Source of the DNA: Prosopocoilus inquinatus
Lineage: Eukaryota; Arthropoda; Insecta; Coleoptera; Lucanidae
Length of the DNA: 64,000 nucleotides
Reading direction: 5' to 3'
Assembly (NCBI GenBank): GCA_036172665.1
Contig: CM069877.1
Span: 16,889,001 to 16,953,000 of the forward strand
Every line of letters begins with the position of its first letter. The first letter of the stretch is position 1. The notes beneath the pieces were generated by a model that made no database searches, was not told the origin of the DNA, and saw only the letters and a program-made list of their open reading frames with translations. The position numbers were made by a program, and so were the translations under genes. Positions 1,064 to 48,654 of the stretch are shown piece by piece.

Positions 1064-1380
1064 TAAAATAGCGACATCTTACTATCGCTTTTTGACCTAA
1101 CATTGCAGTAGGATAGACAAATTGAAGCGGGATTTGCTCCTAATGAGTCCCCCATGCAAGGCGGCCATGCTTGCTGTCAAAGCATAATGAAAGATTTTAG
1201 AAAAATTTTTTGTGCAAATCGTTTTTGATTGCGAATAAATTGGGCAAGTCGTTTTTGGTCTGCAGTGGGAATGTCGAGCTACGTTTCTGCTGAAGAAGCC
1301 CCAAGCAGGGCTGAAACAGCTGTCCAGAGGCTGCTCGAGGTTCTCACTGCAATCAAAAACGATTTGCACAAAAAATTTTT
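1064..1380 (+). mobile_element. Hammerhead-ribozyme short element, copy 1
   Basis: A 317 bp non-coding element flanked by a perfect 16 bp target-site duplication (catatatataaacata at 1048-1063 and 1381-1396). It starts with the segment shared by all four copies (taaaatagcgacatctt), which is inverted relative to the body as seen in copy 3. It then has a junction near 1190-1230 and the common 3' body, ending in cacaaaaaattttt. The 3' body folds into a hairpin (1244-1367) with the ribozyme at its tip. It encodes no protein, so mobilisation in trans is inferred. The 12-16 bp duplications of all copies fit target-primed retrotransposition rather than a cut-and-paste transposase. Confidence 0.85.
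1274..1338 (+). ncRNA. Type I hammerhead ribozyme, copy 1
   Basis: Stem I outer 5' strand is tcgag (1274-1278) and inner 5' strand ttctg (1285-1289). The core CTGAAGA is at 1290-1296. Stem II is AGCCC/GGGCT around loop CAAGCA (1297-1312). GAAA is at 1313-1316. Stem III is the self-complementary ACAG/CTGT (1316-1323), and the predicted cleavage follows C1324 of GTC. Stem I 3' strands are cagag (1325-1329) and ctcga (1334-1338). All invariant core positions are present. One stem I pair is a G-U wobble (ttctg against cagag). Confidence 0.85.
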
Positions 1381-1396
1381 CATATATATAAACATA

Positions 1397-2939
1397 GCAA
1401 AGTTCCATTGAGAACTACGTTTCTGTAGATTACTGCTCGCCATTTAAAGATACACAAATGGTAATGGTATTAATTGAAAGTTAAAATTAAGGCCAATGTT
1501 ATCGTGTTAAAATTATTCCTATTCTGTTAATACTTTTGAAATAGAAATAAAATTTTTAAATTTCAAGTGAAAAATGTAGTCACCTTGGTACGTCAGATTT
1601 GAAGTTTGCAATTCAATAACCAGAATGTTGTACAATATGCTTCTTATTCAAAATAAAATTTCTTTCATCTGTATAGCATACTGACGATGAAAAACTGTTA
1701 GGATTTATTTCTTTGCTCCTGCATTGCTTCACAAAATACTTTCCTACTATTCTTGTTAATTTCAATACAATGTTGATGGCAACGGGATTTGCGGAATTGA
1801 TGTTTTTCTTTTAATATTCTTTACTGTTGTGTGTTACTTATTCTTGAATATTGTGAAACTTATTTAATTCTTAGTACAATTGAATTTAAAACTGACTTAG
1901 TATCGACATGTGTCGGTATTGATTGCCCATAGCATCATTTCAAGTTTATTGATAGTATCAAAAACAGTATTTTTGTATGCAATGACGTAGAATACAATTA
2001 TCATTCTAATAAAGAAAGAATTGGCGTAATTTAAACGACAAGAGTACCTACCTATTATTTGCTCTGTACAATAATTCATAATACTTTTTGACTGACGTAT
2101 AAATTATTTTCCATTAATTGAAACAACTCAAAGTTTCAAACCTGACTTAGGCGACTAAATTTTTCGTTTAAAATTTGAGAATTTTATTTATATTCCGAAA
2201 GTATTAATATTTAGGAATGATTTTAACACCATACTATTGTCCATAATTTTCTCTTTTTTTTAACACCATTGCCATTTTTGTATCTTCAAATGGCGAGCAG
2301 CAATTCACAGAAACATAGTTTTCAATACAAGTTTGCTATGTTCGGGTTTGAAACTTTCCACCCGGTATAGGATGTTCCATTTAAAATAAGAAAGTTGATA
2401 TCACTTCCGGCGAAACAGGAAGTCCTATGACGACTAGCAGTACATCGAAAAATTCCATATTTTGTTTAATTTATTGTCTCGAAAATTCAGGTGAATTTAT
2501 TAATAAATAAAGATTCTAGAAGGGTGAGCACATGGCGCGAGACGCCCGGTATATTAGCATAAAAGTGTTATAGAATCACATAAGAATTTTTTTTTGTAAA
2601 TGCAGCTTAAAAATGAGAAAGAAAATGTGCCTAAACGAAACCAAATAGATGTTTAGGAAGTTTAAAGAAAAAATATTGAAAACGATTATACGCCGCATCT
2701 GTCCAGCGAAGTATTAATAGGTGTAATATCGAAATGCTATGTTATGAGCATTTTTTCCATAAAACATCATGTACAGGATGTCTCAGAAATTGTGTGAGCT
2801 GACATTATTAACGCCTTTACAGTATCAAATCGTTTTCTGAAAAGTTACAAAAATTGCCATAGTTACTAGATACCCCTTAAGCTAGAAAATATCCATTATT
2901 TTAGAATTGAAGTTGGTTCTTGTCTGATGAAAATTGTAA
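1397..2939. other. AT-rich DNA, no gene
   Basis: No coding region is supported. The short minus-strand frame at 1897-2079 has no recognisable domain. Phrases such as tacaggatgtctcag at 2772-2786 look like the terminus of a decayed DNA transposon, but I could not pair it with a second end. Confidence 0.4.
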
Positions 2940-2989
2940 GTACAAAATTGTTTTAATCTTGAACCGGACAGAAATATGAAGGGAACGCG

Positions 2990-3027
2990 CTCAACGTTTC
3001 GCTGTAGATTTATAGCTTCGTCAGGAG
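2990..3027 (-). ncRNA. Hammerhead-like motif at the 3' end of a PLE remnant
   Basis: Read on the minus strand: CTGACGA (3024-3018), a stem II of six pairs including one G-U (3017-3001), GAAA (3000-2997), and minimal stem III AC/GT followed by T. A 3 bp stem I pairs CTC (3027-3025) with GAG (2992-2990). This matches the CUGANGA-stem-GAAA layout known for hammerheads in Penelope-like elements. It lies about 160 bp downstream of a PLE endonuclease fragment on the same strand. Stem I is short, so activity is uncertain. Confidence 0.6.
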
Positions 3028-3189
3028 TGAAAAAAAGTAAATAAACAAGTTGTCAAGAGAAACAAGTCGTCAAAAGAAACGAAAAGGTAACATGATTTTA
3101 AACTAAAATACGAGTTGTCCGGAATAAAGGAAAAAGAAAACTAGAACTAAATTAAAAGCAATTTTTCTTTTTTTAATTAATTGACAGAT

Positions 3190-3535
3190 CTATATCCTGT
3201 TTAAAGAGTCCAGAAAACTACAAAATATATCATTTAAATTTTCAAAGTCCGTACGTTTATTAATAGAATTTGGAGACATTTTAATTTTACACATTTCTAT
3301 GAAACGTCTTTTAAAAATATTAGATTCACTGTACAAAATGTCAGTATTATCAAAATCAAAATTATGATTATTTACTAATGAACGCTCTACAAGCATTTAA
3401 TAATTTTGATTATTTTTTTGAATATGATATTTATGTTGGTATAAACGTTTTTTTTTGAAATTTTGGCTTGTTTCACCTGTATAAACAGAATTACGTAAAC
3501 AACGTTAGGTTGTTTCAATTTCGGTATTTTGGTTT
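3190..3535 (-). pseudogene. Penelope-like element GIY-YIG endonuclease, fragment
   Basis: Minus-strand translation gives the GIY-YIG-like start SVYTGETSQNF about 25 residues upstream of a stop. After the stop follows HNFDFDNTDILYSESNIF, then KRRFIEMCKIKMSPNSINKR and a short tail. This is the C-terminal endonuclease domain of Penelope-like retroelements, which nicks target DNA. At least one in-frame stop (near 3397) breaks it. It continues upstream into the reverse transcriptase remnant (3560-3888), and the hammerhead-like motif lies downstream, which is the normal PLE order. Confidence 0.75.
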
Positions 3536-3539
3536 TTAA

Positions 3540-4083
3540 ATTCTAAAAAATTAAATTTAAATTATTCACAGATTTACTGGCTAAAATTAAATTATGTTTT
3601 TTGTAAATGTGTTTAAATATATTGTGTAATGGTTCAATATAAGGCAATGATATGTATTTATGGTTCGAAGTTTGTCTAATGTTATTATAAACATTTGAAT
3701 TGTGTAATTATTTAATACGATTTTTAATTACTGATTCAATAAAATTTATTGGATAAGAATTTTGAATAAGAATTTTGTTTTTTAAATTTAAGTTATCATA
3801 AATGAAAACTTTATCAGAAAGTAAAATAGCTCGATCTATTAATGAAATAATAGTTTATAATTTTATAATTTTTGGGTGTGTACCAGTGAAAATTTATGTA
3901 TCTACCTGACCAGGTAGGTTTATACACACTCAAAAATTATAAAATTCCAACTATTATTTCATTAACAGATCGAGCTATTTTACTTTCTGATCAAGTTTTC
4001 ATTTATGATAACTTAAATTTAATAAAGCATTACATGATCTTACAAAACGACCTTTTTAAAAAGAAAAAAAAAATATTTAGAAC
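3540..4083 (-). pseudogene. PLE reverse transcriptase thumb remnant with head-to-head duplicate
   Basis: The minus strand from about 3890 to 3560 reads through TIISLIDRAILLSDKVF and NSYPINFIESVIKNRIK, typical of the region after the RT catalytic core in PLEs. A second copy of the same stretch runs on the plus strand at 3921-4083 (TIISLTDRAILLSDQVF), so arms of about 105 bp (3781-3888 and 3921-4030) form an inverted repeat. Stops and indels make both copies non-functional. Inverted 5' ends are common in PLE insertions. Ribozyme element copy 2 is inserted immediately downstream. Confidence 0.65.
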
Positions 4084-4095
4084 AAAAATAAGTAC

Positions 4096-4447
4096 AGCGA
4101 CATCCTACGATCGCTTTTTGACCTGACATTGCAGTAGGATAGACAAATTGATGCTTTGACAGCAAGCATGGCCGCCTTGCATGGGGGACTTATTAGGAGC
4201 AAATCCGCTTCAATTTGTTTACCGCACTGCAATGTCAGGTCAAAAAGCGATCGTAGGATGTCGTTGTTTTATCTGTTCATCACTATTACATCGTAATTGC
4301 GAACAAATTGGACAAGTCGTTTTTGATTTGCAGTGGGAATGTGGAGCTACGTCTCTGCTGATGAAGCTCTAAATAGGGTTAAAACAGCTGTACAGAGGCT
4401 GCTCGAGGTTTTCACTGCAATCAAAAACGATTTGCAACATAATTTTT
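4096..4447 (+). mobile_element. Hammerhead-ribozyme short element, copy 2
   Basis: A 352 bp copy flanked by the 12 bp duplication aaaaataagtac (4084-4095 and 4448-4459). The first about 55 bp are an inverted copy of internal sequence (about 4200-4260), so the 5' half folds back on itself. The 3' half carries the ribozyme hairpin (4311-4435). It is the most diverged copy, with several changes in the catalytic core, so it is probably the oldest. It was inserted beside or into the PLE remnant. Confidence 0.8.
4342..4406 (+). ncRNA. Hammerhead ribozyme, copy 2 (core mutated)
   Basis: CTGATGA at 4358-4364 and stem II AGCTC/GGGTT (4365-4380). The GAAA position reads AAAA (4381-4384), so invariant G12 is lost. 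Stem III is ACAG/CTGT and the triplet is GTA. Inner stem I ctctg/cagag is intact, while the outer strand is tggag instead of tcgag. The architecture is clear, but the G12 change predicts loss of cleavage. Confidence 0.75.
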
Positions 4448-4844
4448 AAAAATAAGTACCTACATACATTAACTTTTTGAATTCATTTAGAAAATAGCAA
4501 GGAATAAGACGAAAAAATAAACTTTTACGTTTTTCGTAAAAGCAATAATATTCAATAAATAGGATTAAATGCTTCGGCTTATTTAAACGTACATTTTGTT
4601 CCGTTGTAAATGGTTCATAATGTTGTCTAGTTCCCCAAATCCGATATTCAATATTCGTCTTGAGTCCGAAAATATATATTATAGGGGAACTTTGTTTCGG
4701 CATTTCGTATCACAAAAAAATTAATTAATTGTTATTGTACTTCTTTATCCAAAACAATTGTCGAAAAGGCAATACGAATTTATGAACAAGGACTAAAAGT
4801 TTAAACCCGAAATTTCTATTTACCGTGGCAAAAATCAGCAACGT

Positions 4845-5040
4845 CGTTGGCTGGCAATAGATTACTGGGCATCGATTATTGGCAGTAGAGTATCGGTTAC
4901 TACGTGTACCACTGGCAACCCATTACTATGCTCGATTACTGTGCATCGATCGATTAGGTATCGTTTGCCGACAATCGATTACTGGGTTCCGTTACCGGCA
5001 ATCAATTATCGGGCATTGATTACTGGCAGTCGATAACTAC
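4845..5040. repeat. Degenerate short-period minisatellite
   Basis: About a dozen degenerate units of roughly 16-18 bp built on gattactgg and catcgattac phrases (for example atcgattattggcagta and atcgattactgggttcc). Unit length and sequence drift across the array. It is non-coding. The flanks at 4460-4844 and 5041-5151 hold nothing that I recognise. Confidence 0.6.
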
Positions 5041-5151
5041 ACTAACGTGTTCAAGTCACTCAGTTCTTTCGAAAAATTGCTCTGGCATTTTATTGGCAAT
5101 TTCTTACTAACAAGCATGTTTATTTGTCAAGATAGTTTTCAGTAATACTTA

Positions 5152-5279
5152 TACTCGATTATTTCATCTCTTGATAAATTTATCTGCCAGGTATTATCCT
5201 TGGAAACCATTGTATCGATAATAGTTTCCGGGGATATTACCTGATAGATAAATTTATCAGGAGGTGAAAAAATCGGGCC
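5152..5279. mobile_element. Palindromic MITE, Harbinger-like, copy 1
   Basis: A 128 bp palindrome with arms of about 60 bp sharing cacctcctgataaattt and caggtaatatcc. The right end begins ggcccgatttttt on the reverse strand. It is flanked by TTA (5149-5151 and 5280-5282). A 3 bp TTA/TAA duplication together with a GGCCCG-type terminus suggests PIF/Harbinger mobilisation. A second copy lies at 46780-46890. Confidence 0.65.
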
Positions 5280-5556
5280 TTACAGAGAAAGCAAGGCTGT
5301 TATTGTTAACGCCGATTTTCAAATCATTTGACAATTGTGCAATTTTTCACATAAAACAATCGACGATCCACAATTTATAAAATTAAAAAAAAAACATAAA
5401 ATTAAGGTAGATTTCAAGATAATTGTTGGCAGTTTCTCACATAAAACAAAATACGGTTGTCAAATAAATATTAAAAATTTTTAAATTAAAAAGAAAACCT
5501 ACAAAAATCGCTTTGAATAAATAAAAGTGACTCGACTTTTTCTGAAATTAAATAAT

Positions 5557-8095: not shown

Positions 8096-8105
8096 ATGCA
8101 ATTTA

Positions 8106-11400: not shown

Positions 11401-11462
11401 AAGTACAGATAAGTGGTGGAATTTTCTTATTTTTCTATTTCCCAAAGAAAAACCAACTTATA
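8441..11462. other. Long unique stretch; CpG-richer candidate regulatory core
   Basis: No gene or transposon coding sequence is supported. About 9000-10960 is unlike the surrounding AT-rich repeats. It is CpG-containing, has GC runs (about 9870-9915) and TAAT-rich homeodomain-like sites, and resembles insect conserved non-coding DNA. A short double hairpin made of two near copies of a palindrome (ctgtaaaattttacagg) lies at 9414-9464. Conservation cannot be tested here. Confidence 0.35.
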
Positions 11463-12323
11463 CGTGGGCTGCTGGAAAATTTTCTGGAATCTAGTAGGTC
11501 TAGAATTGTTAGCGTTTATCACCTGTCATATTTGAAAAATTTGACGTTTTTCGCCTATAATTCTATTGACAGTTCCTATCCAAGTGAACTAGTTTTGTTT
11601 GTACAGCATTTGAGAAAGAGTAATTTTGTGTAAACATGGAAATCTCGCGTGAAAATTTTCATGCCTTAATTTTTTACGATTTCAAATGTGGCCTAACGCC
11701 GAAACAATGCCTTCATTTGGCTTTTGGAGATGGAAATATTTATTTCGAAATGAACCAAAATCAACAAAAGTTGTCCGTTCACGCAGTGCTGCGAAGCAAA
11801 TGATTGCTTGTTTCTTTGATTTAACTGGACATGTAGCAACCATGGGTTTAGAGAATCGAAAAACGGTGAATGCTGATTGGTAAACTACAATTTGTTTGCC
11901 GGAAGTCATCGATCAAATAAGAAGAAACAATCGAAATCGACGAATTATTCTCCATCATGACAACGCCAGCTTTCATTCAGCTCGTCAAACAGTTGATTTG
12001 TTGTCCAACAAAAAAGTTGAATTAATGACTCATTGTCCATATTCACCTGATTTATCACCTAATGATTTCTTTTTGTTCCCAAATATCAAAAATAAAATGT
12101 GTGGTGAGCGATTTTCGTCGGCTGAAGCAGCGATTGAACCATTCCGGACACTGGTTTCTGAGATGCCATCTTTAGAGTGGAAAACGTGCTTTAGAAATTG
12201 GTTCGAGCGTAAGCAAAAGTGTATTGACGTCAAAGGCGAATACTTCGAAAAACAATGATACCGTTTACCAATTTCATATGCGTTTTTTAATACCGTTTCC
12301 AGAAACTTTTCCAGCAGCCCACG
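11463..12323 (+). mobile_element. Internally deleted mariner, copy A
   Basis: An 861 bp element with mariner ITRs of about 27 bp (cgtgggctgctgg on both ends) and TA duplications (11461-11462 and 12324-12325). It is the deletion derivative of the 1289 bp copy at 57169. The central roughly 420 bp, from just after codon 25 to the region past the first catalytic Asp, is missing, with a smaller 8 bp loss before it. Intact ITRs mean it could once have been moved by a full-length relative. Confidence 0.9.
11636..12258 (+). pseudogene. Mariner transposase, deleted and broken
   Basis: The start ATGGAAATCTCG (11636) gives MEISRENFHA, the expected N-terminus. The deletion removes most of the DNA-binding domain and the first catalytic Asp. 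The remaining C-terminal part keeps IILHHDN (second Asp) and YSPDLSPNDFFLFP (third Asp, 34 residues apart) and ends GEYFEKQ. A TAT to TAA change at 11881-11883 adds a stop. It also supplies the unmutated reference for the stop in the 57.2 kb copy. Confidence 0.9.
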
Positions 12324-12514
12324 TAGTAATAAAACGTCCTGTTTACATCATTTACAGCAACGGCGAGACGAAGTATACGTCAGTGGCAATGTTTGAAGTT
12401 CTGTTTTCTACGACACAAATAAAATAAACAAAATAAACATTCAACGATTTCTTTGATGAATAGCGAAAGAATATTTTGCGCTGAAACAAATGACCTATTT
12501 AAGAAGGATCGACG

Positions 12515-13800: not shown

Positions 13801-13825
13801 TTTGTCTTTACGTCAACTTTCGTAC

Positions 13826-14503: not shown

Positions 14504-14670
14504 TGTTAACACGATTTTTACGTTCATTTTAATGAATCACATACACTTGTAAAAAAAAAAAACAATTGCAATATAAATAAAAAACTTTCATATAAAAAAA
14601 GGTAATTGTACCAGCGAAATTTTTCTGCAAACAAACACAAAGAAATACAGTCCACTATATCGAATCAACA
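14504..14670 (+). repeat. BEL 5' LTR
   Basis: Begins tgttaac and ends atcaaca (TG...CA). It contains a run of 12 A and an AATAAA-type signal (about 14575-14581). It is identical to 20263-20429. The target duplication ctcac precedes it. Confidence 0.97.
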
Positions 14671-14679
14671 TATTATTTT

Positions 14680-14699
14680 TGGTCCGATCGAGCCGGATT
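14680..14699 (+). promoter_or_regulatory. Primer binding site, probably tRNA-Tyr
   Basis: The stretch tggtccgatcgagccggatt begins 9 bp after the LTR. From memory, the 3' end of insect tRNA-Tyr, ending GGCTCGAAGGACCA, has a complement starting TGGTCCTTCGAGCC. The site matches this except for GAT in place of TT. Primer identity is recalled, not searched. Confidence 0.6.
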
Positions 14700-14970
14700 C
14701 AAGATTTACAAGAACTAAGCGCATCAGCGAAGAAGAGAAACACCGCATAGAAAACTATCGTTCAGGACTACAGATAAGGCTCTAGAACAGTTCTAGAATT
14801 TGTAGGCTGCTATCTGTGTTAAGGTAGTACACATTTATAAAACACATTCATACTTTTATACATTTATTTGCAAAAGAAAATATTTTGACAAATATTTTTA
14901 CACATTAACACAATTTCTTTGTAACTAGGTTACAATAATTCAATTCATAGTTTTCTGAATTTGAAAAGTC

Positions 14971-17900
14971 ATGCAAGACGTCACATCTACTGAAAAACTT
15001 GTGCGTAAACGAGGTACTATTAAATACAAACTAACAAATTTTATAAAATATTTACGCACAGTTCAAGATGCATATGCAAGTGATCAAGTTTTAGCAGAAA
15101 AAACAATCATTGAATTGCAAGATCGTAGTAGCAAGTTTGCATCGTTGTTTGAGGAATTTGATGAAACTCAGAGTAAAATAGAATATATTTGCGATGAAGA
15201 TGACTTAGAAAGGCAATATTTAGAGAGAGAAGATTTCACTGAAAAGCATTCATCCGCAATCACAGACGCAAAATTTATTTTAAAGCAAGTCTGCACACCT
15301 GTCATCCAAATTCAAAGCGACAGTATCACTGGCATATCAGATTCCTCAAAACAAAACGGTATTTCTCACAACATTAAACTTCCAACAATTAAACTTGCAA
15401 AATTTAACGGTGCATATGATAATTGGTTGGAATTCAAAGATACTTTTGAGTCACTAATTAATTCAAACAAATCAATTGACAATGTTCAGAAGTATCATTA
15501 TTTACGTGCTTCACTAGAAGGTGACGCACTAAAGGTTATACAGTCTCTAGAATTCTCATCCGAAAATTACATAATCGCATGGGAACTACTTTGCAATAGG
15601 TATAATAACATCAGATTGTTAATTAATAATCACATCAAATCTCTGTTTGAATTAAATTCACTTACAAAGGAGTCCTCAAGAGGAATAAGAGACTTGATAG
15701 ATACCATTTTTAAACATTTAAGAGCTCTTCAAACACTAGAACAACCAACAGAACATTGGGACACTTTGTTGATATTTTTAATTACGTCAAAATTAGACAA
15801 ATTTACTGTTCGGGAATGGGAAAAAGTTAAAACAGGCAATAATTTCCCAACACTTTCTGAATTCAAGAGTTTTTTGAATTCAAGAGCAGATTTTCTAGAA
15901 ACACTTGAAATCAATCATAATAAAATTGCCAAAGAACATAAACAGTTACATAATAATATCAAACAAGTTTCGTTAATATCCTCAAATGTGAAATGTCCTG
16001 TATGTAATGGGGCACATTTAATTTATTATTGTGAAAAATTCTTAAAATTAAATTTGTCAGATAAATTAAAAACAGTAAAGCAGCTGAATCTTTGTAATAA
16101 CTGTTTACGTTCAGGCCACACAACTAAAAACTGCAGATCTGGATTTTGTAAAAAGTGCAAAGCTAAACATAACACTTTACTTCATCCAGAATTATTATAT
16201 ACACGTGAACCAATTACATCAAAAACAATTCATCCAAATGCATCAACAACAATTTCGCCACAAGTTAGTTTCACAAGTCATTATCCTAATCAACATGTTC
16301 TGCTTTCCACTGTATCAATTTTAGTTCCAGATGTTTTTGGCAACATTCATACTGCAAAAGCTTTACTTGACTGTGGTTCTCAGTCAAATTTTCTTACTTC
16401 AAAATTTTGCAAAAAGTTAGGATTAGAAGAACATTCAACAAACATGACCATTGGAGGAATCAATGGCGTTTCATCAGTCATTAAAAAAAAATGCAACATT
16501 GTGATATATTCACTCAATTATGAATTTTCTACTAATCTTTGTTGTTTTATTTTGCCCACAATTACAGGTAATTTGCCTTCATTCACTATCAACACCAGCT
16601 CATGGAATATTCCAGCCAACATTCAATTGGCAGATCCTCAATTCACCGAGCCTAGTGAAATAGATGTACTTATTGGTGCAGGTATTTTTTGGAATATTCT
16701 TCATCATCAAAGAATTCAGTTGGGTAAGAATATGCCAGTTCTTCAAAACACAGAATTCGGTTGGATTATATCAGGTACCATCTCAGAATCCATTTCAAAA
16801 ATTCATTGCAATTTTTCTAAAACTCACAGCAATCTTGATTCTGAATTGCAGAAATTTTGGGAGATAGAGGAAATTAATAACGAGCATTCTATGTCTTCCG
16901 ATGATGTTTATTGCGAAAAACATTTCCTAGAAACGTTTTCTAGAAATGAAGAAGGACGGTTCATTGTTCGAATACCACTAAAACATTCTGCTTCTAATTT
17001 AGGTAACTCAAAACCATTATCAATTAAACGTCAACAACAATTAGAACGTAAATTTTCATACGATTCTAATCTAAAATTTCAATATTCTCAATTCATAAAA
17101 GAATACATAGATTTAAACCACATGTCTCAAGTAAATTTAATTCCTTCCAATACAGCATATTTTTTGCCACATCATGGTGTTTTTAGACAAGAAAGTTTGA
17201 CTACTAAACTAAGAGTAGTCTTTGATGGATCAGCGAATTCTGATTCAGGTTGGTCAGTTAATGATTTACAATTTACAGGGCCACCCATTCAGAATGAAAT
17301 ATTTTCTATACTCATAAAATTCAGACAACATCCTTTTGCAGTTTCGGCAGATATAGAAAAAATGTATAGGCAGGTCGTCATTCATCCTGATGACAGACAT
17401 CTTCAAAATATTGTTTGGAGATTTAGTTCAGACGATCCAATTTCCATTTACACTTTAAATACAGTTACCTACGGCACTAGATCTGCTCCGTATTTAGCCA
17501 TAAGATGCTTAAAGCAGTTGGCTCATGAATATCAAACAAAATCTTCTTTCGCATCTTCAATAATAAAAAATGATTTTTATGTTGATGATCTCATAACAGG
17601 TTTTGATTCTGAAACAGTTGCAATCAATGTATGTAAAGAAATTGCATCAATTCTAAATTCAGCATGTTTCCCATTAAGAAAATGGAATTCTAATAGTCAG
17701 CTTTTCTTGCAAGAGTTTCAAAATGAAAATGAACCTGTGAGTGTTTTAAATTTAGGAGATAATGAGTTTTCAAAAACTTTAGGAATAAAATGGTACAGTA
17801 AATCTGATACATTAGGTTTTCAAATCAAAAATTTTGAAAATTCTTTATCAATTAATAAACGATCAATCTTATCTGACGTAGCAAGGATTTTTGATCCATT

Positions 17901-20127
17901 AGGTTTGTTAAGCCCATGCACTATTTTCTCAAAAATAATTATTCAAAAACTATGGTCTCTTAAATTAGATTGGAATGATCCTATTCCAGACGATTTGAAA
18001 GCTACGTGGATACGATTCAGAAATAATTTAACAAAATTAAATCAACTCAAATTAGATAGGCACGTCATTTGTAAAAATTCTACAGAAATCGAATTACATG
18101 GTTTCTGTGACGCGTCACAAAACGCATACGGTGCGTGTGTATACGTTCGCAGCATCGATCAAAAAGAAAAGATTTTAATTAATCTCTTATGCGGAAAGAC
18201 AAAGGTTGCTCCACTGAAATGTTTAACTATGCCAAGATTAGAATTGTGCAGTGCTTTGTTGTTAAGTCAATTAATTAACAAAGTACAAAAATCATTCACT
18301 ATCGAATGCTCATATCATCTATGGTCAGATTCTCAAATAATATTACACTGGATTAACTCTCCATCTCATTCATTACCAATTTTTGTAAGAAATCGCATTT
18401 CTAAAATTCAAGAATTAACACAGATTAGTAATTGGAAGTACATAAACACAAAAGATAATCCTGCCGATCTTACATCACGAGGAATTTCTCCTGAAAATTT
18501 ACTCAAGTCTCAATTGTGGTGGAACGGCCCTTCATGGTTGTCTCTTCCAACTAATCATTGGCCATCATCCGCATTCTCAATTTCAATTAAATATTCTAAA
18601 AATAATGTTTGCTCAGCTACTGTTGAAAATAATTTTCAGATATTCGAAAGGTTTTCTAGTTTGAATAGGTTGAAAAGAACAATGGCATACATTTTACGAT
18701 TCATCTTAAACATTAAGAAACAAAAATCTGAACGGCCGCACGGATATTTGACTATTGCAGAATTAGATCTCAGTATGAAACAATTAATAAAATTGTCACA
18801 ACAAGACAGTTTTCCTCAAGAAATTAATTTATTACTAAATAATAAAAATTTAAAGCCAAAACACAATTTATTATCCCTTGCTCCGTTCATTGATACTGAA
18901 GGTTTATTAAGAGTCGGTGGTCGATTAAAAAACTCTTATTTAGATTTTGCTCAGAAACATCCTTTGATTTTATCGGGAAAACATCGTTTAGCAAAACTAA
19001 TTTTTGAAAATACGCATATAACATTACTTCATGCAGGTCCACAATTGTTATTATTTACAGTAAGACAGCATTTTTGGGTTACATCTGGAATGAGTGTGGC
19101 TAAGTCAGTAGTGCGAGGTTGCATCAGATGTTTTAAATCTAAACCAAAATCTTTTGATCAAATAATGGCAAATTTGCCAAAAGAAAGAGTTACAGTTAAT
19201 AATCCATTTTATATCACGGGAATAGATTATGCAGGGCCTTTTAATATAAAAGATCGCAAAAGTCGAGGTTCAAAGACTATAAAGGGCTACATTTGTCTTT
19301 TCATCTGCTTTTCTACTAAAGCTATGCATCTTGAACTTGTGACAGATTTATCAAGCGAAACATTCCTTGCTGCTTTGAGAAGATTTGCATCACGAAGAGG
19401 CAAACCAGCTCATTTATATTCAGATAATGCAACAAATTTTATCGGAGCAGCTAAGAAACTATCTGCCTTGCATGAATTTTTCTCAAACTCTAAAACAGAA
19501 ATAACAAATTATTGTACAAATGAAAATATAACCTGGCATTTTATTCCCCCAAACTCGCCTCATTTCGGAGGGCTTTGGGAATCAAACATAAAAAACATAA
19601 AACATCATTTATCAAGAGTAATTAATGACACAAAATTAACATATGAAGAATTTTACACAATCTTAACACAGATAGAAGCAACTTTAAATTCTAGACCTTT
19701 ATACCCTCTGTCATCGGATGTTGATGATCTGCAGCCACTAACTCCAGCTCATTTCTTGATTGGCAAACCATTGACTGCTATTCCGGAACCGCAATTGCTG
19801 GACACACCAACAAACAGGCTGTCGCGTTTCCAGTTACAGCAACAGTTGGTACAAAGTTTTTGGAAGCGGTGGTCACAAGAATATTTGTATCATCTGCAAG
19901 AAAGAAAGAAATGGAAGAGCAAAAATCCAGGGCTAAAGATTGGAAGTTTGGTAATAATCAAACAGGATAACTTACCTCCTTCCCAGTGGCTCCTTGGAAG
20001 AATAGTAGAGCTTCATCCCGGTGACGACAACGTAGTTCGAGTTGCTACAGTCAAGACTCATAAAGGCAATTTCAAGCGAGCAGTAGCGAAGTTGTGTCCC
20101 CTTCCAGTACCTGAAAATTGGCAGTAG
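14971..20127 (+). CDS. BEL/Pao Gag-Pol polyprotein, 1718 aa
   Basis: A single open frame encoding the element's structural and replication enzymes. Domain order: N-terminal coiled region; DUF1759 gag domain from about residue 136 (KLPTIKLAKFNG); zinc knuckle CNNCLRSGHTTKNC (375-388); DUF1758 aspartic protease with DCGS (467-470); reverse transcriptase with YVDD (870-873); RNase H with D1047, E1091, D1120 and D1166; integrase HHCC (H1349, H1354, C1384, C1387); integrase core D1419, D1485 and E1537; C-terminal DUF5641 ending near RAVAKLCPLP. Every catalytic residue I can check is present and there is no stop or frameshift. The length is normal for BEL/Pao. It starts 271 bp after the primer site, and the ATG chosen is the first in this frame. 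Transcription would be driven from the 5' LTR. Confidence 0.97.
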   Translation: MQDVTSTEKLVRKRGTIKYKLTNFIKYLRTVQDAYASDQVLAEKTIIELQDRSSKFASLFEEFDETQSKIEYICDEDDLERQYLEREDFTEKHSSAITDAKFILKQVCTPVIQIQSDSITGISDSSKQNGISHNIKLPTIKLAKFNGAYDNWLEFKDTFESLINSNKSIDNVQKYHYLRASLEGDALKVIQSLEFSSENYIIAWELLCNRYNNIRLLINNHIKSLFELNSLTKESSRGIRDLIDTIFKHLRALQTLEQPTEHWDTLLIFLITSKLDKFTVREWEKVKTGNNFPTLSEFKSFLNSRADFLETLEINHNKIAKEHKQLHNNIKQVSLISSNVKCPVCNGAHLIYYCEKFLKLNLSDKLKTVKQLNLCNNCLRSGHTTKNCRSGFCKKCKAKHNTLLHPELLYTREPITSKTIHPNASTTISPQVSFTSHYPNQHVLLSTVSILVPDVFGNIHTAKALLDCGSQSNFLTSKFCKKLGLEEHSTNMTIGGINGVSSVIKKKCNIVIYSLNYEFSTNLCCFILPTITGNLPSFTINTSSWNIPANIQLADPQFTEPSEIDVLIGAGIFWNILHHQRIQLGKNMPVLQNTEFGWIISGTISESISKIHCNFSKTHSNLDSELQKFWEIEEINNEHSMSSDDVYCEKHFLETFSRNEEGRFIVRIPLKHSASNLGNSKPLSIKRQQQLERKFSYDSNLKFQYSQFIKEYIDLNHMSQVNLIPSNTAYFLPHHGVFRQESLTTKLRVVFDGSANSDSGWSVNDLQFTGPPIQNEIFSILIKFRQHPFAVSADIEKMYRQVVIHPDDRHLQNIVWRFSSDDPISIYTLNTVTYGTRSAPYLAIRCLKQLAHEYQTKSSFASSIIKNDFYVDDLITGFDSETVAINVCKEIASILNSACFPLRKWNSNSQLFLQEFQNENEPVSVLNLGDNEFSKTLGIKWYSKSDTLGFQIKNFENSLSINKRSILSDVARIFDPLGLLSPCTIFSKIIIQKLWSLKLDWNDPIPDDLKATWIRFRNNLTKLNQLKLDRHVICKNSTEIELHGFCDASQNAYGACVYVRSIDQKEKILINLLCGKTKVAPLKCLTMPRLELCSALLLSQLINKVQKSFTIECSYHLWSDSQIILHWINSPSHSLPIFVRNRISKIQELTQISNWKYINTKDNPADLTSRGISPENLLKSQLWWNGPSWLSLPTNHWPSSAFSISIKYSKNNVCSATVENNFQIFERFSSLNRLKRTMAYILRFILNIKKQKSERPHGYLTIAELDLSMKQLIKLSQQDSFPQEINLLLNNKNLKPKHNLLSLAPFIDTEGLLRVGGRLKNSYLDFAQKHPLILSGKHRLAKLIFENTHITLLHAGPQLLLFTVRQHFWVTSGMSVAKSVVRGCIRCFKSKPKSFDQIMANLPKERVTVNNPFYITGIDYAGPFNIKDRKSRGSKTIKGYICLFICFSTKAMHLELVTDLSSETFLAALRRFASRRGKPAHLYSDNATNFIGAAKKLSALHEFFSNSKTEITNYCTNENITWHFIPPNSPHFGGLWESNIKNIKHHLSRVINDTKLTYEEFYTILTQIEATLNSRPLYPLSSDVDDLQPLTPAHFLIGKPLTAIPEPQLLDTPTNRLSRFQLQQQLVQSFWKRWSQEYLYHLQERKKWKSKNPGLKIGSLVIIKQDNLPPSQWLLGRIVELHPGDDNVVRVATVKTHKGNFKRAVAKLCPLPVPENWQ

Positions 20128-20248
20128 TGACAGTGAAATTGTGCATGTTAAAAACAGTTAAAATAATTCATTTTCATTATTACAATCAGTTCATACTTAC
20201 CTGCAATTTATGAATATTTGAACACTTTCTTAAAAAAAAAAAATGTTC

Positions 20249-20260
20249 AAGGCGGGGAGC
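20249..20260 (+). promoter_or_regulatory. BEL polypurine tract
   Basis: The purine run aaggcggggagc lies 2 bp before the 3' LTR. It is the expected primer for plus-strand synthesis. Confidence 0.8.
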
Positions 20261-20262
20261 TA

Positions 20263-20429
20263 TGTTAACACGATTTTTACGTTCATTTTAATGAATCACA
20301 TACACTTGTAAAAAAAAAAAACAATTGCAATATAAATAAAAAACTTTCATATAAAAAAAGGTAATTGTACCAGCGAAATTTTTCTGCAAACAAACACAAA
20401 GAAATACAGTCCACTATATCGAATCAACA
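20263..20429 (+). repeat. BEL 3' LTR
   Basis: Identical to 14504-14670 over 167 bp and followed by the target duplication ctcac at 20430-20434. Confidence 0.97.
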
Positions 20430-29944: not shown

Positions 29945-29979
29945 AAACACTCGGTATTGTTTCACTTAGTATATTTAGT

Positions 29980-35052: not shown

Positions 35053-35054
35053 TA

Positions 35055-37420: not shown

Positions 37421-37907
37421 GCAGATAAAATAGCGACATCTTACTATCGCTTTTTTGATCTGACATTGCAGTAGGATAGACAAATTGAAGCGGGATTTGC
37501 TCCTAATAAGTCCCCCATGCAAGGTGGCCATGCTTGCTGTCAAAGCATAATGAAAGCTTTTCACTGCAATTAAAAACGATTTGCACAAAATTTTTCTAAA
37601 AATTTTCATTATGCTTTGACAGCAAGCATGGCCGCCTTGCATGGGGGACTTATTAGGAGCAAATCCCGCTTCAATTTGTCTATCCTACTGCAATGTCAGG
37701 TCAAAAAGCGATAGTAAGATGTCGCTATTTTATCTGTTCATCACTCTTACATCGCAATTGCGAATAAATCGGGCAAGTCGTTTTTGTTTGCAATGGGAAT
37801 GTCGAGCTACGTCTCTGCTGAAGAAGTCCCAAGCAGGGCTGAAACAGCTGTCCAGAGGCTGCTCGAGGTTTTCACTGCAATTAAAAACGATTTGCACAAA
37901 ATTTTTA
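37421..37907 (+). mobile_element. Hammerhead-ribozyme short element, copy 3 (longest)
   Basis: A 487 bp copy within the LINE, with duplication tataattaatta (37409-37420 and 37908-37919). It has three parts. An inverted 5' segment of about 135 bp (37421-37555) is the reverse complement of 37605-37740. A short 3' monomer tail follows (cttttcactgcaattaaaaa and on, 37556-37598). Then comes a full-length monomer (about 37599-37907) with the ribozyme. The tail joined to a new monomer head is a head-to-tail junction, direct evidence that a tandem template was copied. Confidence 0.85.
37802..37866 (+). ncRNA. Type I hammerhead ribozyme, copy 3
   Basis: tcgag (37802-37806), ctctg (37813-37817), CTGAAGA (37818-37824), stem II AGTCC/GGGCT (37825-37840, one G-U), GAAA (37841-37844), stem III ACAG/CTGT (37844-37851), cleavage after C37852, then cagag and ctcga (37862-37866). 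The core is intact and activity is plausible. Confidence 0.85.
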
Positions 37908-40970: not shown

Positions 40971-40995
40971 GTTAGTTAGTTAGTTAGTTAGTTAG
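40971..40995. repeat. (GTTA)n microsatellite
   Basis: About six perfect GTTA units. The unit is 4 bp and therefore not the insect telomere repeat TTAGG. Confidence 0.85.
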
Positions 40996-42480: not shown

Positions 42481-42819
42481 TTTAGCACATGTTATAAATC
42501 TAGCCCCTTACCGCTTGCTATGAAGGAGTTAGACGAAGAATTAACGGACGGGAACAAGGGTAGAGTTACAAAATTACGTTTGCAACATAACCAGCTCATT
42601 TCGTTACACCGCGTCGCACCGACGTGAAAACCATCTGCCATCGTTTTGTAGTCAGCAGGAGAGAGAGAGAAATTAGTGCTTCAAAGCCCATAACGAACCT
42701 GCTGCGATCAGCAATGTCCAAATAGACGTGCACATAGGAAAGCTTACATGACCACAGTAAAAACGGGAAATGGGAAATTATTGTAACAACCCATCAGAAC
42801 GATCAATTCTTGTCTACAC

Positions 42820-43700
42820 CGTCGAAATTTCACTGTTCGTGACCTACAAAATTTACTTCGAAATGCCACAAGTGTGATCATTTCTGATCAAACGATTAAA
42901 GGAAGTCTCCAAGAGGCTAAATTGACTTCTCGCAGGCCTGTTCAAGTTTCTCGCTTGAGCAAGGATAACAAAATGATCCGTCAGAACTTTGTCCGCGAAC
43001 AAGTTCAATGGCAACTATGACACTGGATATATGTACTTTTTATGGATGAGTCACGTTTACTCTAACGCACTGTAATCGTCGTGTAAAAGTGTACAGTCGC
43101 AATCAAGCTAATCGAGACCGATTGACAGTTCTGTAACCCTTACTACCAGCATTAACAAGGGCGCAGTTAGCGTGCAGCGGTCTCGATTAGGATGATCGCG
43201 GCTGTACAAATGTCCTATAAAGCAATACCCTGATCAATGGGTACAGGAAGTGGAGCGATTTAGAGGTGAATCGGGGATCGATAATGTTTTGGGGTGGCGT
43301 CAGTGTATTAGACGTCGCACCGACTTTACTGTTGCTTCCTAACGTAACAACTAGCAGATTTATGTAGGTACAATGTCTTCGAGAGAATGTTGTATCGTTT
43401 ACCTAATTTTAGCGATAGATTCATTCTCTAAGGGATAAATGCCGAATTCATACCTCAAATTTAACCAGAGCACAGAAAATTCAAGTAATGGAGTGGCTGA
43501 ATCCAGATTTAAATGACATCAAGTGCGTTTGGGATTTACTCGACAGATGTATCCGCACCACGGACTCCTCAGAAACTGGCTAAAGTCCTTCTGGAAGAAT
43601 GGGGGGATTTGCCGCAAAACATGCTAAGGCAACTTATTCGCAATAAGCTTCAACGATGCCAGACTCTTACGGGGATAGAATCCCTCCAACTCTTTCTGTG
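42820..43700 (+). pseudogene. Tc1-like (DD34E) transposase, heavily decayed
   Basis: Plus-strand pieces in several frames. First comes a helix-turn-helix region about 42830-42960. Then LFMDESRLL (first catalytic Asp in MDES, near 43042), VQEVERFRGESGIDNV (43246 on), MEWLNPDLNDIKCVWDLLD (catalytic Glu position reads Lys, near 43520), and EEWGDLPQNMLRQLIR with QRCQTL (43590-43670). These match the Tc1 order closely, but stops, frameshifts and an inserted MITE make it dead. Confidence 0.75.
43094..43204. mobile_element. 111 bp MITE inside the Tc1 pseudogene
   Basis: TA-flanked (43092-43093 and 43205-43206). TIRs of about 28 bp pair cagtcgcaatcaagctaatc with the reversed right end cagccgcgatcatcctaatc, both continuing gagaccg. 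It splits the transposase, so it inserted later. Confidence 0.75.
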
Positions 43701-44454
43701 GGATACCAAAAGACTTATCTCCTTTAAATGCGTGAGAACCCCGGAATTCACGATAGCCAAATCGTCACTCCAGGTTTGCACCTCTTATGACAGTTTGACT
43801 TTCGCTTTGCGCACAACTGCCTAATGATGCTCTGGGTTTGTACCTGTTGCACCATTAAACACCTGCCCGCAATGAACTCGAGATTACGTCATAAATTGCT
43901 TGTTTAAACACTCGTTTAAATGCTGAAGGCAGATATTTCAATTTTAAAAATAAAAACAATGTGTGACGGCTTGCGCCGAGTCACGAGATTGTCATTATGG
44001 TTTAGTTTTTTTATTTAACCCTTTTTTTTAAATTACAATCTGGATCTAATATTTATTGTAACTAATTGATACTCTACTAACAATACTTATAAGCGAGCTA
44101 TTTTCCCGGTTGGAATTTGCTTAAAATCTGCTTAAAATTTGCCCGTTCAGTGCTCTGTCGTTTTTTTTATGCCTCTTCTCTCACCACCAGTTTCGCCTCA
44201 CTCAGACGCTCTCGCATGAACCGCGTGCAACGACCGCATGTAGGGACATTGTTGTGCTGCAAAATTAGAACGCCTAACTTGTCAAAACAATCGAAATTTC
44301 AGTTGATACTAACTATGACATTTGGTAGTGTTATGTTGTTGTTTACAAACATTTGGAAAATCTTCGATGAATGAACACGTAAGTATGTTTTTTTTTTGAT
44401 TAGTCTACAATGCAATCTGTTTGTCTTAATATTTCCTAACGTTCAAAACCGATA

Positions 44455-44730
44455 ACTCGACCAAACGGTCCAGTGGAAAGGGACCGGCCTTGCAATCATA
44501 AGGTTGTGAGTTCGCACCCGCTCGAGCTATTTCTCGAGAGTCGTTACTCACTTCAGGTATCCTTTAGTGTTGGGGAGAAAATTCGACATTATATCCCCTT
44601 CAACGGTGAGGAGGTTTGGAAGTAGCAAAGCCATGGAACACTTTACACACACAAAAATACACTCCCGCTCCTGAGATCCTGACAAGTCTATGACTTAGGA
44701 CCTCGTTGGGCAACACCACACCACAGATAG
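44455..44730 (+). mobile_element. tRNA-derived SINE
   Basis: The head has a tRNA-like layout: a box A-like gtccagtggaaagggacc (44469-44486), then ggccttgcaatcataaggtt, and a box B-like gagttcgcaccc (44508-44519). A unique body follows and it ends near caacaccacaccacagat. This is the structure of insect tRNA SINEs, whose transcription by RNA polymerase III uses these boxes. The exact 3' end and target duplication are not clear. Confidence 0.6.
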
Positions 44731-46779
44731 AATGAAAGTACAACGCGTTTAGTATATTTATCTCTTTCTATCCCGTCGCTAGACTGACGTGCAGTAAAAT
44801 GAATAGTCGGAACTATTCGTTCAAGAAACTTCTCTGACTGGATGTTATTTTAAATTTCGTTTTTATATGTACGAATAACAGTTTGGTTATTCCGTGGTCA
44901 TTCCATAATAAATTTGAATTAATTTAAATGTTGTAGGTATTATTATTATCGTATTATCGCTATGGATGTTCCGCATATTATATGTAAGTACTTTAATATA
45001 AATGCCATCCTTACAATGAAGTGAACACGATTGAGTAGAAATATCTTCGGGCACACCACTGCCAAAATTACATATTTTAATTAACGATAAAACACAAGGT
45101 CACTTACTTCATTATTTGTTTAACTTGGTATGAAATGACAATCAGAAATGGTTGTGTGGCAGCAATTTTAAAAATGTGTAAAAAGTTTGGGTATGTCAGG
45201 ATAATGTTGATTTAAAAAATTTGTTAACTATGACTAGCATAAAAATACGAATGTCTAAAAAGCATATAAATAACTGTATAAATTTAAAAATTTAAAAATT
45301 TCTTAATAATAAAGACGCGTTAACTGTACATACTACATCAATCTCTTAAATTAAATATACAGGGTGGTTTATTATAGCTCACCGACAAGCTTTGCTATAT
45401 GAAAGTTCATGGAATTTTAAGAAAGAAAAAATTGTTTGGACATTTGCTATGTTATTTTAGTTGAAGATTTAATTTTGATTATAAATGATAAGTTTTTGAC
45501 TTTGCTGAGATGAAGGCATCTCTTAAGCCTAGCAAAAGGTGAACACATCGTAAGCCAAAATGGTCATCTTCGGCCAAGAGGTCTTCAAGCATCACGACAA
45601 CAAGAAACACATTCGCGGTAACAAAACAAAACATGTACGGAGATTATTGTATGATATCTGTAAAGGGAATTTATTTAGGAACATTTAAAAAATTTCATAA
45701 GTCGGTGGCAACAGTAATAAGGAAGTAGTTTTTTGTGAAAAGCAATAAAACTCAATTAACAAAAAAGTGTTTACTAGAAATTGGGAATGACGCGCTCTAA
45801 GGATAGTCAGAATATGAGAGGGAGGTGTTTTTCTTGTATGATCTGTATTAGGGGATGAAGTGATTTTCGAATGAAGTCACAAAATACCAGCAAGCAATCC
45901 GCGTCGGGTATTATCGAAGAAAGTCATTTAAAAACGGAAGTATAGTGTCCAGGTTATCATTGAATTAAAAATATGAACGAGTGCATGCGTGTACATTAAT
46001 AATAAAGTGCAGATGGGACAAAAGCCGTAAGATGAACAAAAATATTAACATACCGTCGGGAACTATTTAAATCACTTATCAATTTTAATAAATGATTGTT
46101 CAAATAAATTTAACGTTAAATGTCAAGACAAATAATAAACATTTTAAGGAAAGCTAACGTATCAGTATCGCAAAAATAAATATCAAACAATTAATAACTC
46201 CATTGCAGGAACTTAGTTTGTTATAACCCGTTTAAAAGAAAGAAATACATTTCATTTATTGTTCCAAAATTAAAAATTTGTTAAATAAACCCATAGAAGA
46301 AAATAAACGATTTTAATTTGTTCTGAATTTCATTCAAAATTATATTTGAGCTTTTATTTATAACAATTAGAAAAGAACCCACAAGATTGTTATAAACAAC
46401 AAACAGAAAGGTCACGACCCTGGACCTCTAAGAGTTGCATGTTAACAAAAATTTATATGCGTTATTACAAACAAAAATTGTTGCACGAAAAATAACAATA
46501 ACGTAGCAATATGTTCCGATTATCAAAATCACTTAAATATATAAGGCTTACGTATACACCTAACTATTTCTTCTTCATTGTGTCGCCTACCCTGGATCAT
46601 TAGCTACGAGCCGCCACTGCCAAAACGTTATTTAAATAATTCCTAACCTAACTCAAATGTTTACTTGAAACTTAACTAAATTCTAACAATAATTCAAAAT
46701 TAAATATTACTCTTGTTTTACTTTAAACAAATCAAAATCTTTTTTTCTTAACCTAAAAACAATCAAAATGTTTCACTAA
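44731..46779. other. AT-rich DNA, no gene
   Basis: No coding region. The phrase tacagggtggtttattatag at 45359 is a transposon-like end without a partner. Confidence 0.35.
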
Positions 46780-46890
46780 TGCCCGATTTTTTTCACCTCT
46801 TGATAAATTTATCTGCCAGGTAATATCCTCGGAAACTATTATCGATTCAATGGTTTCCAAGGATAATACCTGACAGATAAATTTATCAGT
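46780..46890. mobile_element. Palindromic MITE, Harbinger-like, copy 2
   Basis: The same family as 5152-5279, in opposite orientation. It starts tgcccgatttttttcacctc, then ttgataaatttatctgccag, and its arms are joined through attatcgattcaatgg. TAA precedes it. The right end is degraded. Confidence 0.65.
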
Positions 46891-47278
46891 CATAAAACTG
46901 ATTTTTCTCGCCGTAGGTGACTTTGTTCCGCTCAAATGTTGAATCGCCAAAAGATTGCCTGGACAACTCGTGCACCGGTGAGTTCATTTAGACCTCGGCC
47001 TCCTTTTAACTTTTGTTTTGTTTTGTTTAAAACACGGTGTAACTGTCTGTCTTCTTAGGCACCAATTGTTTTTTTCACTTCCGGAACTAAATTTCCCGCA
47101 CTAACACAAGTTCAGCGTGGAAGTGTCCTTTTGAGAGTTTCAGAAATTGCAGTTCACTACCGTACTGTTCGAATAAGAGTACCAGGTATTTTCAAACGTT
47201 TATTATAGTTTATTACAATATTTTTTTATTGACCGTAAACTCTTTTCTTGTGACAAAATTATAATAAACAAATCGCAA

Positions 47279-47401
47279 AAACAGTTACTTAATGAAAAAT
47301 AGTGTATTAATGACTTCTATGAATACATCGTTTTTTTTTTTAAACAGTTACTTAATGAAAAAGAGTGTAATAATGACGTCTATTAATATATCGTTTTTTA
47401 A
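47279..47401. repeat. 62 bp tandem duplication
   Basis: Two adjacent units share aacagttacttaatgaaaaa, then gagtgt/tagtgt and aatgac, and end atcgttttt. They differ at about six positions. Confidence 0.75.
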
Positions 47402-48423
47402 ACAAAATAATTAATTTATATCGAAATTAATAAACGGTCAACGAAAAAAACAAATGAAACATAACTTATTTGCGGTTTCTGAAACGATACATAATTTTAC
47501 ATACAAACTCAAGATAAATTTACCATAACTTCTAAAAACCGTTTCTCAAAACTTTATCTGTAGGTAAAGTGTATACGTCGTAACGTAACCAATTTATACT
47601 TTTCATAATGTTATCTGTCGCGAAAAATTTATACTTACCTCAAGTTATTTATCGTTTCAGAAACCGGGCATTAGTTCCTTTCTTTAATTAAACTCAATTT
47701 TTTTCGAGGTTTTCTTTAAACTTAAATATCACAGCAATATGTAGGGTCCATGAATGAAAACGGAAATTGGTTCGTATTTTTTTAAAACGCAATGATCGGA
47801 CGACGATTTTCAAAATGGAAGGAAAATATCTATCACTTCTCTATTTAAACTTTTCCCTAATGTAAAAAATAAAAGAGATGTGGTTGTGGGAAGTTTCATG
47901 TGTTGAGTTTTCTTAAAAAATTGTGTTCTAAATGTGAAATAAGATCATATTTTTAATTGTACTAGCGGTCAAGCGTGGCGAGGTCGATTCGTCTTGTTAG
48001 GCAAACTGCATGGGTGCAATTTGGCGCGAGAAATAAAGCACTCGGAGGCATTTTCCGACTTAACGAGCGGCGTAGAAAGCAGAAAAAGCATTTTAAATTT
48101 TTCAAGGGCTGAAAGCCCGGGTGCCTTGTATAGGTCGATTCGTAACGCTGTTATCAGGGTCGCAACTTACGAATTCACTCACGGCGGATTCGTGAGTCCA
48201 GTGCAATGACTACATTTGCATAATCCCCTTAGTCGCCGTCGCCATCATGGAAATGTGTGTTTATTTATTACCGGAGAGCTTCATCTACATGTTCGCTCCT
48301 AGAGAGAATGTAATTTGTTCCGGAATGTATTTTGGAACGCGACTGTCACGCTACTTATGCATTGTAAACAAAGGTTGAAACAGAAACGTACATATGTACA
48401 TTTGTTATAACTATAATATTTAA

Positions 48424-48654
48424 CAGATAAAATAGCGACATCTTACTATCGCTTTTTGACCTGACATTGCAGTAGGGTAACAAATTGAAGCGGGATTTAC
48501 ATCAAATGCGAATAAATTGGGCAAGTCGTTTTTGTTTGCAGCGGGAATGTCGAGCTACGTCTCTGCTGAAGAAGCCCCAAGCAGGGCTGAAACAGCTGTC
48601 CAGAGGCTGTTCGAGGTTCTCGCTGCAATCAAAAACGATTTGCACAAAATTTTT
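48424..48654 (+). mobile_element. Hammerhead-ribozyme short element, copy 4 (shortest)
   Basis: A 231 bp copy with the 13 bp duplication ctataatatttaa (48411-48423 and 48655-48667). It begins cagataaaatagcgacatct, as the others do, with about 78 bp of inverted 5' sequence, then joins the monomer at aaatgcgaataaattgggc. The ribozyme hairpin spans 48521-48643. It is the best preserved in the catalytic core. Confidence 0.88.
48550..48614 (+). ncRNA. Type I hammerhead ribozyme, copy 4
   Basis: tcgag (48550-48554), ctctg (48561-48565), CTGAAGA (48566-48572), stem II AGCCC/GGGCT (48573-48588), GAAA (48589-48592), stem III ACAG/CTGT, cleavage after C48600, cagag (48601-48605), and ttcga (48610-48614, one G-U with the outer strand). 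All invariant nucleotides are present. It is the best candidate for a self-cleaving RNA in this window. Confidence 0.88.

Follow-up and report, generated by a model that had tools for sequence, protein, structure and literature searches.

We analyzed a 64 000-nt window of the beetle Prosopocoilus inquinatus (contig CM069877.1, positions 16 889 001–16 953 000; coordinates below are those of the window unless a locus is named) together with its 650-Mb host genome. A short element present in four copies in the window is likely a metazoan-type retrozyme family inserted by Penelope-type machinery that primes from both target strands. Its copies derive from a 311-nt unit with a conserved hammerhead core, and most consist of two opposed arms that begin at two recurrent sites, share alleles, and lie between target-site duplications (TSDs). 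Penelope-like elements (PLEs) of the same genome show the same layout.

Window copies consist of two opposed arms

A preliminary description of the window had recognized four copies united by a common 3′ body. All four were recovered on the plus strand, at 1064–1380, 4096–4447, 37421–37907, and 48424–48654, but the common body is only part of the picture: each copy opens with an inverted piece of its own unit, missed earlier, running antisense from about U179 and continuing as a sense piece that ends at about U37. The 3′ body thus corresponds to the sense arm, and what makes up the variable 5′ part is unit sequence in inverted orientation.

The unit is a permutable, non-coding 311-nt repeat with a GC content of 42%. 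Its numbering, U1–U311, follows 37560–37870 on the plus strand of copy 3, in which the 3′ segment is present twice at a spacing of 311 nt; U37 accordingly falls at both 37596 and 37907, U179 at 37738, and cleavage is predicted after U293 (37852). With arm starts corrected for TSDs, copy 1 has an antisense arm at 1064–1232 (U173 down to U7) and a sense arm at 1228–1380 (U198 to ∼U37), flanked by the 16-bp TSD CATATATATAAACATA at 1048–1063 and 1381–1396. Copy 2, which is older, combines an antisense arm at 4096–4154 (U167 to U109) with a sense arm at 4151–4447 (U52 to ∼U38) between 12-bp repeats of AAAAATAAGTAC. The antisense arm of copy 3 occupies 37421–37561 (U178 to U39–45) and is followed by a sense arm at 37555–37907, which at 353 nt exceeds one lap of the unit; the TSD is TATAATTAATTA (12 bp). 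Copy 4 pairs an antisense arm at 48424–48498 (U177 to U102) with a sense arm at 48497–48654 (U188 to ∼U37), and its TSD is CTATAATATTTAA (13 bp). These direct repeats of 16, 12, 12, and 13 bp bear out the earlier claim that every copy has a TSD of its own, of 12–16 bp.

No frame with reverse transcriptase (RT) and GIY-YIG domains lies within the window copies, and the 311-nt unit is too small to hold one; the retrozyme is thus not itself a PLE. What stands of the short mobile element family first proposed, with its type I hammerhead, is that it is short, non-coding, and flanked by TSDs, whereas its plain anatomy gives way to a permutable 311-nt repeat, two-armed copies, arms of several laps, and a tie to PLEs.

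Two fixed ends recur across the genome

Searching the host genome with copy 4 and scoring the best 40 of 1239 candidates, we fetched 40 regions, comprising 39 new loci and copy 4 itself read again. Including window copies and duplicates, 52 clusters were mapped, 44 with at least two pieces and eight with one. Duplicates (L042 of L039 and L022 of L021) were dropped before counting. In 37 of 43 two-armed clusters (38 of 44 before L042 was dropped), one end fell outright no more than 12 nt from U179 and the other no more than 15 nt from U39; the row selection itself demanded these ends, so that the 38 rows comprise only clusters that satisfied it. The six others are the second cluster of L013 and the first of L040 (both cut by locus ends), L026, L031, L041, and L043. 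On inspection or refetching, four of these fit as well: the second L013 cluster, L026 (internal gap), L031 (beside an older piece), and L041 (101 foreign bases). The first L040 cluster, being cut by the locus end, is not assessable. The two-site pattern is thus present in 41 of 42 assessable two-armed clusters, and in no two-armed cluster did the two ends coincide in a single site. The single pieces were L021, L022, L029, L030, one piece of L045, one cut piece of L024, and two pieces of L041, the last two of which proved on refetching (as L054) to be parts of two-armed elements. One-armed insertions were fewer than two-armed ones in this survey.

A TSD above threshold flanks 35 of 37 elements, compared with 0 of 400 random placements; lengths range from 11 to 19 bp, 12 and 13 being the commonest. 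The flanks are symmetric, with AAC before and GTT after the duplication (15 of 70 retrozyme sides vs a 1.8% background). A DNA query made from part of the A segment returned no candidates, a result that does not show rarity, and scanning viral contigs with a pattern gave no match.

Other classes of mobile element were considered and rejected. A foldback or terminal-inverted-repeat DNA transposon does not fit ends that are different sequences (U179 and U37) and TSDs of varying length, and internal T5 runs argue against a short interspersed element (SINE) transcribed by RNA polymerase III. SINEs moved by a long interspersed element (LINE) have a single orientation, one fixed 3′ end, and a variable 5′ end; here, 44 of the 52 clusters, duplicates included, hold at least two pieces.

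Shared alleles point to one template for both arms

The point at which the arms meet differs in nearly every element, so that the inversion arises afresh with each insertion: among 43 switch junctions, 42 are distinct, and only L018 and L026, on the same chromosome ∼0.1 Mb apart, share one. Alleles agree at 668 of 745 comparisons between opposite arms of one element and at 421 of 458 between successive laps, against 41 010 of 70 314 between different elements. The C/A site at U293 is concordant in 24 of 26 elements; none of 20 000 shuffles did as well. This agreement indicates that both arms of an insertion were copied from the same template. These data also bear on the possibility that a single master copy acquired the two-armed shape and that later copies are deleted derivatives of it. 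Outer ends common to nearly all copies would suit such an origin, but the distinct junctions, and alleles shared far more within the arms of a copy than between copies, led us to reject a frozen inversion, and we regard a master copy as extremely improbable.

Arms are 25 to 906 nt long. Individual arms mostly fall short of a full unit; in 16 of 37 elements, an arm exceeds 311 nt. The cleavage site is spanned by all 37 U37-arms, which follows in part from choosing loci with a hammerhead-containing query, and by 18 of 37 U179-arms. No gap was seen at U286–U301, and none of 74 arm stops fell within 2 nt of U294, a position at which chance would place no more than about one. Multi-lap arms, a spanned cleavage site, and the lack of stops at U294 together make it more likely that the template was circular or multimeric than that it was a cleaved linear monomer; run-off from such a monomer was rejected on the count of stops, with its chance expectation of about one.

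Three elements indicate that the family moved recently, since their arms are identical over 149 (L009), 151 (L010), and 311 positions (L012). The last, at L012 1440–2913, is a very recent element of 1474 nt that runs through ∼4.7 laps over its two arms. At the switch, microhomology is moderately raised: with the L023 value of 54 left out, an overlap of at least 2 nt occurs in 25 of 36 junctions vs ∼66 of 200 simulated ones (medians 2 and 1; Mann–Whitney p 0.005), while the simulated mean of 3.0 exceeds the observed 2.5.

Hammerhead conservation and predicted fold

The hammerheads lie on the plus strand at 1274–1339 (copy 1), 4342–4407 (copy 2), 37802–37867 (copy 3), and 48550–48615 (copy 4). 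We searched both strands of the window with a descriptor requiring stem I of at least 4 bp, CTGANGA, stem II of at least 3 bp, GAAA, stem III of at least 2 bp, and TH. It returned three plus-strand matches, in copies 1, 3, and 4, and none on the minus strand; when position 12 was allowed to vary, copy 2 was the only extra match. The strict form matched twice in 150 simulated first-order Markov windows (both strands). Core motifs are CTGAAGA at 1290–1296, 37818–37824, and 48566–48572, and CTGATGA at 4358–4364 in copy 2, where G12 has become A. This agrees with the preliminary description, in which copies 1, 3, and 4 kept the core and copy 2 had lost G12. Cleavage is predicted after C17 at 1324 (1324/1325), 37852, and 48600; copy 2 has A17 at 4392 and is predicted to be inactive. 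The palindromic stem III of copy 3, ACAGCTGT, lies at 37844–37851. By the descriptor, the family has the type I core (CUGANGA, GAA, and NUH with stems I–III and an open stem I).

Across the survey, 76 of 83 units keep an intact core, with at least one such unit in each of the 38 sources. Variation at the 11 invariant positions is 0.75%, compared with 3.9% for the whole unit, and 123 of 20 000 random sets of positions were as low. Within the core, a common variant occurs only at H17 (C or A), and change is allowed there in hammerheads. N7 deviates in four of 87 units and the invariant U259 and U261 in two each. Among older copies, U or C is favored at N7, and A at 17. Where stems have changed, pairing is kept in 63 of 82 changed cells, largely through two common wobble changes. 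The palindromic stem III is nearly invariant among units. Folding of two strands predicts a double hammerhead in which stems I and III form between the strands and stem III is the shared 8-bp palindrome ACAGCUGU, so that the hammerhead is predicted to act as a dimer; amphibian retrozymes are described as needing dimers for hammerhead action (PMC7229834).

A second hammerhead family was observed in the genome at L049 1303–1592 and at L050 953–1270 and 1406–1594, with a canonical CTGATGA and 34 bits for the Rfam model HH9. Its copies are palindromic, both arms seemingly end at the same point, and no large open reading frame (ORF) lies nearby.

Penelope-like elements bear the same scar

PLEs are abundant in the same genome. 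At least 150 GIY-YIG matches of the Penelope type were found (the best 150 of 2232 candidates scored), with frames of up to 788 aa, and one frame of L064 holds both RT and GIY-YIG. Neighboring matches form 48 pairs within 10 kb, of which 47 are minus then plus (head-to-head), one is on minus twice, and none is plus then minus; 95 of the 150 matches are in such pairs and 55 are unpaired.

In all 14 minus–plus pairs fetched, exactly one arm carries a 38-nt tail (33–38 nt beyond the common end), and the pair is flanked by a TSD of 11–17 bp. AAC/GTT stands beside the TSD on five of 28 PLE sides, against the 1.8% background. A conserved hammerhead-like motif was present in 18 of 18 PLE loci examined (a count that excludes L058, L059, L061, and L062), comprising CTGAAGA, one extra U before stem II, and the palindromic stem III ATACGTAT. 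The presumed PLE cleavage point lies ∼48 nt before the end without the tail; from U293 to U37, the retrozyme measures 55 nt. The retrozyme thus shows the features of a PLE insertion: a separate RT start site for each arm (41 of 42 assessable retrozyme clusters and 14 of 14 PLE pairs), TSDs, and a shared nick motif. Retrozyme and beetle PLE bear the same scar without significant sequence similarity at their start sites.

This correspondence bears on whether a LINE with ordinary twin priming, rather than a PLE, supplies the insertion machinery. Twin priming by L1 yields inverted 5′ parts, TSDs, and microhomology, features that resemble these copies, and an RT fragment adjoins copy 3 in the window. 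In L1, however, the internal sites used for twin priming vary, and a minority of insertions arise in this way, whereas the second site here is fixed in nearly all assessable two-armed clusters; moreover, the PLE copies of this genome follow the rule of one arm per site, with similar TSD length and the same nick motif. We therefore consider a LINE quite unlikely.

A decayed fragment of Penelope type occupies 59759–60290 of the window; it is 70–82% like the PLE arm and includes GIY-YIG pieces facing either way.

Relation to known retroelements

Non-LTR retrozymes with type I hammerheads are described from metazoans, insects included (PMC7229834), and the class itself is not new. The preliminary description had called an insect element of this exact form undescribed; searches of open-access papers turned up no account of the beetle family or of the way it inserts from two sites. 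As characterized in PMC7229834, metazoan retrozymes resemble the beetle family in having a non-coding unit of ∼170–400 nt, a type I hammerhead, low GC content, longer TSDs, unit repeats, and a place beside PLEs. The beetle family is a short non-coding unit (311 nt) with a type I hammerhead by the descriptor. Its TSDs measure 11–19 bp, and arms exceed one unit in 16 of 37 elements, but the arms are opposed rather than plain tandems; the metazoan elements are described there as head-to-tail tandems, while the beetle copies are mostly two opposed arms with two fixed ends.

Two PLE systems offer the closest parallel for insertion. For Poseidon of Anolis, the account in PMC11167929 has the PLE protein cutting and extending both strands in vitro, with copying begun at two positions inside the RNA, the stretch between them being the “tail”. 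Penelope of Adineta is reported to have inverted pseudo-long terminal repeats (pLTRs) with a tail that is optional on one of them, and TSDs of 8–10 bp in some copies (PMC3846280). Inverted pLTRs with TSDs, two internal RT starts, AT-rich targets, and (in Anolis) a nearby hammerhead are thus common ground with the beetle retrozyme, which differs in lacking an ORF and in having start sites separated by 142 nt (U37 to U179), or by 169 nt in the opposite direction around the unit, instead of a tail of 30–40 bp.

Plant LTR retrozymes share the hammerhead and a proposed circular-RNA life cycle, but they are described with type III hammerheads, long terminal repeats with a primer-binding site and polypurine tract, and a 4-bp TSD (PMC7761336), compared with a type I hammerhead and TSDs of ∼12–13 bp in the beetle. 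The pDo500 family of cave crickets is likewise an insect non-coding repeat with a hammerhead; going by its title and abstract (PMC2837043), it is satellite DNA, unlike the dispersed two-armed insertions described here.

Proposed insertion route and evidence against it

We propose that multimeric retrozyme transcripts would be cut by the type I hammerhead and the monomers closed into circles. A PLE protein may then bind the retrozyme RNA in trans and nick both target strands ∼12 bp apart at AT-rich AAC/GTT sites. Reverse transcription would be primed from both strands, presumably by the same enzyme, at U37 for one and U179 for the other. These fixed sites and their pairing are seen in the copies themselves. 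Each cDNA would run back along circular or multimeric RNA for tens to ∼900 nt, sometimes for several laps, and the two cDNA ends would join, often at short microhomology, leaving two opposed arms between TSDs. Whether this amounts to a distinct integration route, in which a ribozyme-made RNA circle is copied at the target from both nicked strands, each from its own fixed site and for up to about three laps before the ends are joined, by a rule common to Penelope elements and their retrozyme parasites, is in our judgment evenly balanced.

PMC7229834 regards PLEs as strong candidates for the helper enzyme of metazoan retrozymes, while leaving its identity open. In the beetle genome, a retrozyme and a PLE carry the same unusual scar, with opposed arms, a separate start site for each arm, TSDs centered on ∼12–14 bp, and AAC/GTT. 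This scar can be read from genome sequence alone, so that a helper role of PLEs, and the way PLEs themselves insert, can be tested directly across species.

A number of observations weigh against insertion of a hammerhead retrozyme by PLE machinery. The copy-4 query favors young complete copies. One two-armed cluster, L043 (L055), ends at U137 and departs from the two-site pattern; L029, for which no TSD was detected, is a one-armed insertion, as are L030 and a 53-nt piece of L045, each of which has a TSD; the second arm of L021 (duplicate L022) measures only ∼10 nt; and an old single piece adjoins L031. Rare variants occur in one arm only in 196 cases and in both arms in 19, a ratio expected if most postdate insertion. 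As for the machinery, the 14 PLE loci were chosen as minus–plus pairs, so that their opposed layout is by choice, and comparison of the RNA around retrozyme and PLE start sites gave no significant likeness (best shuffle fraction 0.16). For Anolis Poseidon, the two strands are reported to have shown no difference in start site in vitro (PMC11167929), whereas the two beetle arms use different sites.

The ribozyme, too, meets contrary results. A match to the Rfam hammerhead models had been proposed as a check, and none reached the gathering threshold in the 64-kb window; the best model, HH9, scored 14.5 bits in copy 1 and 14.3 in copy 4, against a cut-off of 52. The young copy L012 (931 bases) matched no hammerhead model up to E = 10, and a genome-wide HH9 search yielded solely another family, not the retrozyme reported here. 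As a block, U254–298 is 17th most conserved of 311 windows, with 16 below it. No double compensation was seen in the stems when changes on both sides were looked for, and monomer RNA is predicted to favor, by 6 kcal/mol, an alternative fold that ties up the core. The sub-threshold scores and the monomer fold would suit a chance or decayed resemblance in a long hairpin, that is, a structured RNA without ribozyme activity. The rarity of descriptor matches in simulated windows, a core intact in most units, a nearly invariant palindromic stem III, and a sole common core variant at a position where change is allowed all make such a resemblance unlikely.

A more serious competitor, though still rather unlikely, keeps the multimeric template and dispenses with circles: uncleaved tandem transcripts would be copied, and the hammerhead would play little or no part in insertion. 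Multi-lap arms are found in 16 of 37 elements, and a multi-lap copy such as the 1474-nt L012 element could itself yield a multimeric transcript. According to PMC11167929, moreover, ribozyme mutants left in vitro insertion unchanged, and no reads in public RNA data ended at the cleavage site. Against uncleaved templates, variation at the invariant hammerhead bases is lower than over most of the unit, and the commonest stem changes preserve pairing. Transcripts of two-armed copies also appear to serve rarely as templates, because only the pair L018/L026 has a common switch junction.

Other features of the window and genome

The window also holds a BEL/Pao retrotransposon at 14504–20429 on the plus strand, whose 100% identical 167-bp terminal repeats, 5-bp TSD (CTCAC), and 1720-aa open frame indicate a recent insertion; the named matches to its polyprotein, among those listed, are all from arthropods, many of them beetles. 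Mariner-like elements at 11460–12347, 57166–58459, and 63660–64000 are ∼91–95% alike in the repeats listed, and one piece is inverted at the window end. A dense nest of inverted repeats at 49721–52714 includes a perfect 202-bp pair (51980–52181 and 52289–52490), and an inverted pair of ∼160 bp at 60319–60477 and 60552–60710, 77% complementary, resembles a small palindromic transposon. A nuclear COX1 copy shows 99% identity to a Lucaninae record, which points to a stag beetle as the probable host. Elsewhere in the genome, there are 42 nuclear matches to mitochondrial COX1, one of which (L079) is open over 447 codons in the mitochondrial code.

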